A stretch of 64,000 nucleotides of DNA from Sphingobium sp. CR2-8 (GTDB lineage Bacteria > Pseudomonadota > Alphaproteobacteria > Sphingomonadales > Sphingomonadaceae): assembly GCF_035818615.1 (NCBI RefSeq), contig NZ_JAYKZY010000002.1:1180501-1244500 (forward strand), in the 5' to 3' direction. This document shows, piece by piece, positions 30,591 through 38,683 of the stretch. A program made the position numbers and the translations under genes. A model generated the notes under the pieces. The model was not told the origin of the DNA, ran no database searches, and saw nothing but the letters and a program-made list of their open reading frames with translations. How positions within the stretch are numbered: the first letter of the stretch is position 1; each line of letters starts with the position of its first letter.

Positions 30591-30799
30591 GGGTGGCTCC
30601 TTTGCCTTGTAACGGGCGCCATTCCGTGGCGTCGAAGACAGAGATAGGACCGGCTTGTCGCGGGGGTGTGTCACGCCTTGGGTGACTTTGTCGGAAATTG
30701 TAACAGATTGATATTTAAGCTGAACTGTTGTTCAGCAAGGGTGGGTTTCGAGGATTTTCCTGGAAGGTTTGCAGGGGCAGGCGGGTTTGGCCCATACAC

Positions 30800-30865
30800 G
30801 TTCCCCGGCGAAGGCCGGGGCCCAGTTGAGAGATCCGAACTGGGCCCCGGCCTTCGCCGGGGAAC
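30800..30865. repeat. Inverted pair of CCCCGGC-family palindromes
   Basis: Near-perfect 27-nt arms (GTTCCCCGGCGAAGGCCGGG and onward to CCCAGTT, and the complement) around a 12-nt centre. Best-preserved copy of this family in the window. Confidence 0.88.
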
Positions 30866-30890
30866 GGCAATCACTTAGCTCGGCGTCACT

Positions 30891-30920
30891 TTCTCCGCGC
30901 CTCCGCGTGAACAAAAAAGC
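30891..30920. repeat. Solo copy related to the GxxExxY-bounding repeat
   Basis: Shares CGCGCCTCCGCGTGAAC and the following A-rich run with the right arm of the inverted repeat at 37890-37921. The second half of that arm is only partly matched (TCTC instead of TCTTCG). There is no gene of the GxxExxY type here. Confidence 0.7.
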
Positions 30921-36473: not shown

Positions 36474-36535
36474 TCAAAGTGTATCATGTTTGAAATTATG
36501 CGCTTTTCCAGGCGCTTTTGGTCAGAGGACAATCG

Positions 36536-37471
36536 ATGCGGGCATTTCTTTTTCCGGGGCAGGGCAGCCAGTCCGTGGGCATGGGCAAGGCGCTGGCCGA
36601 CGCCAGTCCGGCGGCGCGGGAATTGTTTCAGGAAGTCGACGACGCCCTGTCGCAAAATCTGTTCCGCATCATGGTGGAGGGGCCGGATAGCGACCTGACG
36701 CTGACCGAAAATGCCCAGCCAGCGATCATGGCCAACGCCATCGCCACGCTGCGCGTGATGCAGGCGGAAGGCGGCTTCAGCCTGGCGGAGAAGGGCGATT
36801 ATGTCGCGGGCCACAGTTTGGGCGAATATAGCGCGCTCTGCGCCGTGGAGGCGTTCGATATCATCACGACGGCGCGCCTGCTGAAGCTGCGTGGCCAGTC
36901 GATGCAGGCGGCCGTGCCGGTGGGCGAGGGCGCGATGGCGGCCTTGCTGGGCGCGGACATCGACAAGGCGCAGGCGCTGGCCGACGCAGCGGCGCAGGGC
37001 GAAGTCTGCACCGTCGCCAACGATAACGATCCGAGCCAGGTCGTAATTTCGGGCCATCGCGCCGCGATCGAGCGTGCGGTCGCGCTGGTGAAGGATCATG
37101 GCATCAAGCGCGGCGTGCTGCTGCCGGTGTCGGCCCCTTTCCATTGCCCACTGATGCAGCCTGCCGCAGACGTGATGGCGGAAGCGCTCGCGAAGGCGGC
37201 GATCAACGCCCCGCTGCTACCGGTCTACGCCAATGTGCTGGCCGCGCCGATCGCCGACCCCGAAGAGATCAAGGCGCGCCTGGTCGAACAGGTGACAGGC
37301 CGCGTGCGCTGGCGCGAATCCGTGTCGGCCATGTGGGACGCGGGCGTCACCGAGTTCGTGGAGTTGGGCGGCAAGGTGCTCGGCCCCATGGTCAAGCGCA
37401 TCGCCCCCGACGCGACCGTGCGCAGCATCGTGACGATGGACGATATCGAGGCGGCGCTGGGCGCTTTTTAA
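36536..37471 (+). CDS. fabD: Malonyl-CoA:ACP transacylase
   Basis: Loads malonate onto acyl carrier protein for fatty-acid synthesis. 311 residues: FLFPGQGSQSVGMG at the N terminus, nucleophile GHSLGEYSALCA (Ser), and catalytic His in SAPFHCPLM. Start ATG 36536 with AGAGGA upstream. In related genomes fabD is normally followed directly by fabG; here a 445-nt inverted-repeat unit carrying a GxxExxY gene starts 6 nt after its stop. Confidence 0.97.
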   Translation: MRAFLFPGQGSQSVGMGKALADASPAARELFQEVDDALSQNLFRIMVEGPDSDLTLTENAQPAIMANAIATLRVMQAEGGFSLAEKGDYVAGHSLGEYSALCAVEAFDIITTARLLKLRGQSMQAAVPVGEGAMAALLGADIDKAQALADAAAQGEVCTVANDNDPSQVVISGHRAAIERAVALVKDHGIKRGVLLPVSAPFHCPLMQPAADVMAEALAKAAINAPLLPVYANVLAAPIADPEEIKARLVEQVTGRVRWRESVSAMWDAGVTEFVELGGKVLGPMVKRIAPDATVRSIVTMDDIEAALGAF

Positions 37472-37476
37472 ATTTT

Positions 37477-37508
37477 GTTCGCGCGGAGGCGCGAAGACGC
37501 GGAGGAGA
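37477..37508. repeat. Left arm of the inverted repeat bounding the GxxExxY gene
   Basis: A 32-nt sequence (core CGCGGAGGCGCGAAGACG) starting 6 nt after the fabD stop. It matches the complement of 37890-37921 with two mismatches. Its GGAGGAG end doubles as the ribosome binding site of the GxxExxY gene. Confidence 0.88.
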
Positions 37509-37509
37509 T

Positions 37510-37965
37510 TTGGTCGAGATCGACCGCATCAGTGGCGACGTTTTGAATCTGGCTCTGCGTGTGCACCGCGAATTGGGGCCGGGATTATTGGAGAGCGTCT
37601 ATGAGATGATCCTGGCGGCCAAATTGGCCGCCATGGGTTATGTGGTGGAGAGACAGCGCCCGTTCGATGTCGAATATGACGGGTTGCGGTTCGATGCAGC
37701 CTTTCGCATCGATCTCATTGTAGAAGGCGTGCTTCTGGTTGAAATCAAATCGGCGGAACGCCTCAGCCCGGCCCACGCAAAGCAATTGCTGACCTATCTT
37801 CGCCTGACGAAACAGCCCGTTGGGTTGCTCATCAATTTCGGCGGCGCGACGCTCAAGGAAGGGGGGCAAGCGCATAGTCAACGACTATGTCCCCTCCGCG
37901 TCTTCGCGCCTCCGCGTGAACCAAAAAGAACAAGGAGACTGACATGTTCGACCTTACAGGCATGA
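37510..37965 (+). CDS. GxxExxY protein (PD-(D/E)XK nuclease-like), inserted between fabD and fabG
   Basis: ~144-151 residues. The name-giving motif is in LGPGLLESVYEMIL, and a nuclease-like core follows: Asp in FRIDLIV and E-x-K in LLVEIKSAERLSPAH, then LLTYLRLTKQPVGLLINFG. This family is grouped with PD-(D/E)XK nucleases, but its job is unknown. TTG start at 37510 preceded by GGAGGAG from the left repeat arm. As it stands the frame ends at 37965 inside fabG. Removing one G from the G6 run at 37861-37866 gives the family-like LKEGGKRIVND and a stop at 37940-37942, one base before the fabG start. Its last ~15 codons then lie in the right repeat arm. The whole unit looks like an insertion into the fab operon. 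Confidence 0.88.
   Translation: MVEIDRISGDVLNLALRVHRELGPGLLESVYEMILAAKLAAMGYVVERQRPFDVEYDGLRFDAAFRIDLIVEGVLLVEIKSAERLSPAHAKQLLTYLRLTKQPVGLLINFGGATLKEGGQAHSQRLCPLRVFAPPREPKRTRRLTCSTLQA
37890..37921. repeat. Right arm of the inverted repeat bounding the GxxExxY gene
   Basis: Complement of the left arm at 37477-37508 (30 of 32 positions), followed by an A-rich run (CAAAAAGAA) as in the solo copy at 30891-30920. It ends 10 nt before the AAGGAG of fabG. Confidence 0.88.
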
Positions 37966-38683
37966 CCGCGCTGGTGACGGGCGCTTCGGGGGGATCGGTT
38001 CTTCCATCGCCCGGGCGCTCGCGGCGCAGGGCGCGACGCTGGCGCTTTCGGGCAGCAATGCAGACAAGCTCAAGGCCTTTGCCGCCGAACTGGGCGGGGA
38101 TCACAAGACGATCGTCTGCAACCTGAGCGATTCCGCGTCGGTCGATGCGCTGGTGCCGCAGGCGGTCGAAGCGCTCGGCGGGAAGGTCGACATCCTCGTC
38201 AACAATGCCGGCATCACTCGCGACAACCTGATCTTGCGGATGAAGGATGAGGAATGGTCGCAGGTCATCTCTGTCAATCTGGAGGCGGCGTTTCGTCTCG
38301 TCCGCGCGGCGGCCAAGCCGATGATGAAGGCCCGCTTCGGCCGCATCATTTCCATCACCTCGGTCGTCGGCGTCACCGGCAATCCCGGTCAGGCCAATTA
38401 TTGCGCGTCGAAAGCCGGCATCATCGGTATGTCCAAATCGCTTGCGCAGGAACTGGGGAGCAGGGGCATCACCGTCAATTGCGTGGCACCGGGCTTCATC
38501 CGGTCGGCCATGACCGATGCGCTCAACGATGCGCAGAAGGGCGCGATCCTCACCAAGATTCCGGCGGGCGATCTGGGCGATGGCGACGATATCGGCGCGG
38601 CGGTCGTCTATCTGGCGAGCCGCGAAGCCGGTTACGTCACCGGCCAGACGCTGCATGTGAATGGCGGGATGGCGATGATCTGA
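37944..38683 (+). CDS. fabG: 3-oxoacyl-ACP reductase (one-base frameshift)
   Basis: NADPH-dependent SDR of the fatty-acid elongation cycle. MTALVTGASGG starts the Rossmann fold, but the frame then breaks. One more base in the G6 run at 37988-37993 gives TGASGGIGSSIARALAAQGA and 246 residues, the standard FabG length. The rest has VDILVNNAGITRDNL, catalytic Ser/Tyr/Lys in SITSVVGVTG and NYCASKAGIIGMSKSLA, and YVTGQTLHVNGGMAMI. AAGGAG at 37932-37937 precedes the ATG. Because FabG is usually essential, the break is almost certainly a sequence error. Its 3' end overlaps the convergent GT87 gene by 47 nt. Confidence 0.95.

Follow-up and report, generated by a model that had tools for sequence, protein, structure and literature searches.

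A GxxExxY nuclease gene between inverted arrays of short repeat units in the fabD-fabG gap of Sphingobium: a candidate REPtron-like two-part element

Introduction

RAYT genes are flanked on either side by inverted REP repeats, are present in few copies, and are accompanied by short inverted doublets of the repeat that are dispersed in the genome without a gene, as described in three reports (PMC3116915, PMC8049555, and PMC3733652). The last of these also covers CGTC-tagged REPs, dispersed hairpins found mostly in Alphaproteobacteria, which are said to be without a transposase of their own (PMC3733652). A different arrangement is found in 23S rRNA, where an intervening sequence is reported to contain an S23 ORF (PMC4990558).

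We analysed a 64,000-nucleotide stretch of the genome of Sphingobium sp. CR2-8 (hereafter, the window), in which the ORF list and profile matches place a GxxExxY gene in the fabD-fabG gap, bracketed by inverted repeat arms. This unit shares with the RAYT-REP/REPIN systems a gene between inverted repeats, dispersed gene-less inverted doublets, and few gene copies. However, its protein belongs to the PD-(D/E)XK nucleases, whereas RAYTs are HUH Y1 transposases, and its arms are tandem arrays of 8-10-nt units, whereas REPs are palindromes with a GTAG tag, which was scanned for in the tandem-octamer arms of the window and is absent there. GxxExxY genes are also patchier within the genus than the vertical inheritance reported for RAYTs would suggest. 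CGTC-tagged REPs, which are palindromic and carry the CGTC tag, are unrelated to the GxxExxY arms. The 23S rRNA intervening sequences likewise place a small gene between inverted repeats, and stand-alone genes of TIGR02436, the family to which we take S23 to be linked, show inverted short-unit arrays; however, the protein is unrelated, the arm sequence is different and has a period of 7, and the gene of the window lies outside rRNA. Cas4/RecB nucleases share the fold, the catalytic residues, and the QxxxY motif, but the GxxExxY protein is without conserved Fe-S cysteines and is small and stand-alone in the window. Insertion sequences and MITEs resemble the unit in having inverted ends and versions with and without a gene, but the GxxExxY unit showed no matched transposase domain, no target duplication seen by eye at fabD-fabG, and no near-identical recent gene-bearing copies among the pairs inspected. 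In a literature search, an association of GxxExxY genes with inverted arm arrays was not found in print.

Results and discussion

Structure of the unit in the window

The features of the locus are listed in Table 1. The original prediction of two inverted arms was confirmed, with 30 of 32 positions matching, as was their spacing: the left arm begins at the sixth base past the fabD stop, and the right arm stops 10 nt short of the AAGGAG of fabG. The arms have an exact 24-nt core in common (37482-37505 on the plus strand and 37893-37916 on the minus strand) and lie within a longer inverted repeat (53 nt, 81%; 37464-37516/37882-37934). When the window was shuffled 100 times with dinucleotides preserved, the core was never matched with three or fewer mismatches. 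Each arm consists of approximately three tandem octamers, CGCGGAGG CGCGAAGA CGCGGAGG, and both arms point inward. A description of the arms as palindromes was rejected in favour of these CGCGGAGG-like octamers.

Table 1. Features of the GxxExxY locus and of the solo arm in the window.
Feature	Position	Strand	Remarks
Solo arm, no gene or partner	30892..30916	-	23/25 identical to right arm; also 93% over 28 nt
fabD (malonyl-CoA ACP transacylase)	36536..37471	+	ORF 36518-37471; upstream neighbour
fabD stop codon	37469-37471	+	
Left arm	37477..37508	+	Three tandem octamers pointing inward; last bases are the GGAGGAG Shine-Dalgarno of the gene
GxxExxY gene (TIGR04256, PF13366)	37510..37965	+	TTG start; profile matches, ORF; 143-aa relatives
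Right arm	37890..37921	-	Inverted copy of left arm; C-terminal tail coded here in relatives
fabG	37944..38683	+	Downstream neighbour; ORFs 37944-38126 and 38153-38683; relatives' fabG

The upstream neighbour is an ORF that we take to be fabD; a single fabD match was found in 92 of the 94 genomes of the genus. As predicted, the left arm supplies the ribosome binding site of the inserted gene, GGAGGAG lying 2 nt ahead of the TTG start at 37510. An arm unit and a Shine-Dalgarno-like stretch stand immediately ahead of the start in 54 of 93 genes (start codons of relatives were set by a simple rule), which supports the proposal that the unit carries its own translation signals. At some loci with CACAGATGAA-like arms (L160 and L171), the first residues of the protein (MNTDE) are encoded within the arm.

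The right arm was thought to encode the C-terminal tail of the protein. This holds in relatives (e.g. L010), but in the window the GxxExxY domain is intact up to about 37860 and the frame thereafter is unlike that of relatives. The departure from the 143-aa relatives occurs at a run of G residues (37861-37866), and the annotated tail is thus partly out of frame. The fabG frame is also interrupted relative to relatives, at a G run at 37988-37993. Because fabG is essential as a rule, these frame losses in the two genes are likely sequencing errors.

The gene-less copy predicted near 30891-30920 is real, and further arms lie elsewhere in the same genome. Next to the solo arm, at 30799-30866, lies a further hairpin pair consisting of CGTTCCCCGGCGAAGGCCGGGGCCCAG and an inverse copy, which by eye belongs to another repeat type.

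Family, fold, and active site of the protein

The window protein matches TIGR04256 (E 6.8e-36; 123.2 bits, cut-off 35) and PF13366 PDDEXK_3 (E 4.1e-35; 121.1 bits, cut-off 22). The latter is its sole Pfam match, and no Y1/HUH transposase domain was found in it with Pfam. In an alignment of 51 rows, H19, E28, D68, E78, K80, and Q92 are invariant and Y96 is nearly so; these include the active-site residues of PD-(D/E)XK nucleases (E28, D68, E78, and K80), in line with the resemblance to this class noted in the original prediction. Q92 and Y96, located after ExK, form the QxxxY motif. No cysteines for an Fe-S cluster are present among the invariant or nearly invariant columns of these 51 rows. 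The best structural match is 4ic1, and modelling places the protein among the PD-(D/E)XK nucleases, nearest Cas4/RecB.

Inverted arms around relatives

Searches for TIGR04256 detected the gene in 18 of 94 genomes at the genus level (one copy each), in 54 of 249 at the family level, and in 62 of 349 at the phylum level. All 18 genus loci consist of a gene with inverted arms located directly upstream of fabG; the unit directly follows fabD in 16 of them, and another gene intervenes in L020 and L021.

To score the arms, the 250 nt upstream of each gene were locally aligned with the reverse-complemented 250 nt downstream of it. The set contained 97 loci, taken from the best-scoring places first (17 of the 18 genus loci, with the window's own excluded, 30 loci from the family search, 20 further places, and 30 loci from the phylum search), of which 96 were scored and L149 was dropped because of its short flank. 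Flanking, which had been expected to be consistent, was detected in 90 of the 96 loci (above the 99th percentile of single-letter shuffles) but not in the other 6, and only 43 exceeded the 99th percentile of cross-locus pairings. A wide bacterial scan covered the best 80 of at least 579 confirmed places, including some already in the first set (L256/L094, L237/L043, and L304/L172). Of 78 scored loci (L269 and L280 were dropped), 63 exceeded the 99.9th percentile of shuffles of two-letter blocks, versus 5 of 910 control blocks of matched geometry taken from these loci. The association crosses phyla: outside sphingomonads, among which L228 (titled Arthrobacter) was counted because its protein resembles theirs, 39 of 54 loci are flanked and 15 are without detectable arms. 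A clear match was obtained at 146 of 174 loci. At these, the unit has a period of 8 in 102, 9 in 24, and 10 in 15, and the motif CRCNVAR is present in the left arm in 135 versus 19 on its complement.

Arms vary from locus to locus, but the two arms of one locus are alike. An arm resembles its own partner more closely than it does the partners at other loci; this holds in clade 1 (p 0.003) and in each of the family, phylum, and wide sets (p ≤ 0.0005 for each), and the effect is absent within the six clade-2 loci (p 0.51). Own partners ranked first in only 30/50, 9/29, 26/54, and 3/17 loci. Among 48 loci at the fabD-fabG site, the score is 48.9 for own partners versus 33.4 for others (0 of 5000 permutations). 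The 275 transition mismatches between arms comprise 143 that are G-U-compatible and 132 of the A-C type (p 0.55). This lack of G-U bias indicates that RNA pairing does not explain the likeness of the arms, and speaks for identity kept at the DNA level.

Presence, loss, and exchange at the fabD-fabG site

Gene-less fabD-fabG spacers were inspected in 63 of the 76 genomes without the gene and tallied by hand. The clean empty sites that had been anticipated exist: 25 spacers are short (17-25 nt) and arm-free, and by eye these share no target-like sequence. Arm remnants are retained in five (L061, L067, L109, L112, and L130), and in L109 and L112 the left-arm type of one allele is joined, by eye, to the right-arm remnant of the other. 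Six spacers have other content and one is unreadable. A gene of about 800 nt, resembling enoyl-CoA hydratase by eye, is additionally present in 19 spacers (L060, L064, L080, and 16 more; one was not measured to its end). CGTC-type hairpin repeats were seen by eye in seven (L062, L066, L072, L079, L126, L132, and L134), suggesting that the fabD-fabG gap accepts several kinds of insert.

Quick trees with few well-supported branches were used to trace the site. On the fabG tree of 60 genomes, presence requires 15 changes, compared with a mean of 15.8 for shuffled labels (as low in 196 of 500), and at least 8 changes are forced by the starred branches. On the protein tree of 95 rows, the 49 fabG-side copies need 4 site changes versus 31.9 when shuffled, indicating that the fabG-side site is old and that relocations have been few. 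With regard to the vertical inheritance typical of REPtrons, the gene tree shows fidelity to the site and the fabG tree a patchy presence; a common site by descent had been named as an argument against an element, yet the empty sites exist as well.

Alleles have been swapped at this site: L016 and L018 are 96% identical in fabG but 63% identical in GxxExxY, and each carries arms of its own allele type. One relocated unit, that of L031, is bounded by its arms: by eye, its likeness to fabG-side relatives begins with one arm and stops with the other. A clean empty site was not found for it. No target-site duplication was seen by eye at fabD-fabG, and no recent gene-bearing copies at new places were found among the pairs inspected.

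Dispersed gene-less arms

The number of arms was predicted to follow the presence of the gene. In counts of an octamer pattern in 94 genomes, the median is 12.5 with the gene (10.5 after subtraction of its two own arms) and 1 without it, and, with own arms removed, gene and arm count are associated (one-sided p 6.7e-6, AUC 0.82); 36 of the 76 gene-less genomes have no arms. In tree-controlled pairs, however, the link is not significant (median p 0.25), with on average 3.5 pairs in the expected direction versus 0.4 in the other. Arms do occur in gene-less genomes, a finding that had been named as contrary to the element, but less often than in gene-bearing ones; the arm-rich examples are G024 (58 arms), G003 (17), G089 (12), G038 and G041 (9 each), and G070 (8). 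An arm scar is present at fabD-fabG in G024, which also contains near-identical longer elements (L207-L209, L217-L219, L222, L223, and L225), in which the arms are 113 nt apart and conservation extends past the arms. These longer repeats are a recent amplification in a gene-less genome, and the arms inside them may have been moved by something else. Y1 transposases are absent from 7 of 11 arm-rich genomes.

Among 78 gene-less arms of four genomes (G002 and G003 searched by one pattern, G055 and G080 by another; complete lists with the genes' own arms excluded), 27 pairs are convergent, 5 are divergent, and none is direct. The one doublet that was folded, a convergent gene-less pair elsewhere in the genome of the window (L006), forms a hairpin (z -4.64). 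The arm subtype also tends to follow the gene that is present. Subtype-2 arms have a median of 12.5 in genomes with a clade-2 gene, 1 with a clade-1 gene, and 0 with no gene, and the share of arm subtypes leans to the resident allele (one-sided p 0.023). Exact arms of the ACG unit (L251 type) number 6 in the genome of L251 and 2 in that of L229, in each case including one of the gene's own; G682 has 1, four other genomes have none, and G686, the home of the related but unflanked L264, has the most (14). Extra exact copies thus number 5 in the genome of L251 versus 0 or 1 in five usual-unit genomes; when up to two mismatches are allowed, counts of 8 and 9 are also reached in two of the usual-unit genomes, G682 and G688.

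Arrays around TIGR02436 genes

As a comparison family, the four-helix-bundle genes of TIGR02436 (L307-L336) were analysed. Inverted arrays were found in 17 of 30 loci versus 0 of 120 controls; L324, L325, and L331, which are short-flanked and were read at the wrong place, are counted as misses. The period among the 17 is 7 in 11, 14 in 5, and 8 in 1, with the units GTAGGCA, GTGAGGA, and GGCGAAT, and none of the 17 arrays contains the GxxExxY arm motif. The arrays of the two families thus differ, suggesting that the arm class goes with the protein family.

Nature of the element

The anatomy, dosage, and subtype of the arms suggest that the unit resembles a REPtron with its REPINs, although it is not itself a member because the transposase and the GTAG palindrome are absent. 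The single-copy trait of REPtrons is seen in the 18 genus genomes, but G200, in the family search, has 8 copies. The parallel with RAYT and REP drawn in the original prediction is largely supported, by the flanking, the doublets, the empty sites, and the copy-number link (not significant in the tree-controlled pairs), but not by the form of the arms. The repeat-dispersing element that it proposed also stands in part: gene-less doublets are present, but the gene-bearing unit was not seen spreading recently and keeps mostly to one site on the gene tree. We consider it somewhat probable that the arm-gene-arm unit is a two-part element of the REPtron/REPIN kind that uses an unrelated nuclease, in which binding and movement would be the work of the encoded protein.

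We infer that the GxxExxY protein binds, cleaves, copies, and spreads the arms. The nuclease would recognise inward-pointing arrays of 8-10-nt units in DNA, probably when two arms are paired or when paired arms form a hairpin in single-stranded DNA, and would cut or process at the arms. The repair or copying that follows would keep the two arms of a locus alike and would permit swaps and the occasional relocation of the whole unit. Loss of the middle of the unit would leave arm scars, and gene-less arm doublets would spread in trans.

Other explanations were weighed against this REPtron-like reading. A homing-type allele, as also envisaged in the original prediction, would have its nuclease cut gene-free spacers or those of the other allele and repair copy the unit in, the arms being both cut sites and protection. 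A scatter of presence on the fabG tree comparable to that of shuffled labels, with its forced changes, the swap of two alleles between near-identical flanks, and the arm-free spacers and five scars of gene-less genomes are consistent with homing. Loss and ordinary recombination, however, would yield an identical picture and fit the patchiness equally well, the empty spacers share nothing target-like by eye, and homing at one site leaves the dispersed doublets and the relatives at other sites unexplained; we regard it as unlikely. Quite improbable, too, is a passenger origin, in which some unrelated transposase moves miniature elements whose ends are the arms, and two such elements captured the nuclease gene between them. 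It would account for G024, with 58 arms, no gene, and several arms in a longer repeat family, and for the 17 arms of G003, but this protein family is found with this class of arm in different phyla, TIGR02436 genes carry arms of their own that are free of the GxxExxY motif, and the arm subtype leans to the gene allele.

The arms may alternatively act in the fabD-fabG transcript, pairing to shield the Shine-Dalgarno sequence or to allow excision by RNase III, in the manner of 23S rRNA intervening sequences. In favour of this are the strong folding of the transcript (z -7.06), the location of the Shine-Dalgarno sequence in the left arm, and the S23 ORF reported inside such an intervening sequence (PMC4990558). 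This RNA-level explanation nevertheless appears quite improbable, given the near-equal numbers of G-U-compatible and A-C mismatches and the dispersed doublets and single arms, which need another cause. Very unlikely, in our judgement, is a domesticated Cas4-like nuclease that is kept for the cell, in defence or otherwise, with the arms as regulatory leftovers. Weak PADLOC matches to Cas4 and RT-associated PDDEXK (best E 3.6e-4) and the occurrence of TIGR04256, searched with one query, on 8 of 72,556 plasmid records point in that direction, but presence is scattered even among close relatives, the neighbours in the window are fabD and fabG, and the arms are retained in most contexts tested.

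If the REPtron-like reading is correct, a protein family known mainly by the name of its motif would gain a role, dispersed repeats in Proteobacteria, Verrucomicrobia, Desulfobacteria, Bacteroidota, and others would gain a likely maker, and an arrangement of the RAYT-REPIN type would have evolved independently around an unrelated nuclease. The reading would also bear on the long-term likeness of inverted pairs of short repeats and on the tolerance of an insert inside an essential operon. More tentatively, GxxExxY genes with (CRCRRAGR)n arms and TIGR02436 genes with period-7 arms might together form an unrecognised group of non-transposase two-part DNA elements, which would explain the makers of CGCAGAGG-like and GTAGGCA-like repeats through dispersal by PD-(D/E)XK nucleases. 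The two families co-occur in some genomes (G354, G361, G459, and others).
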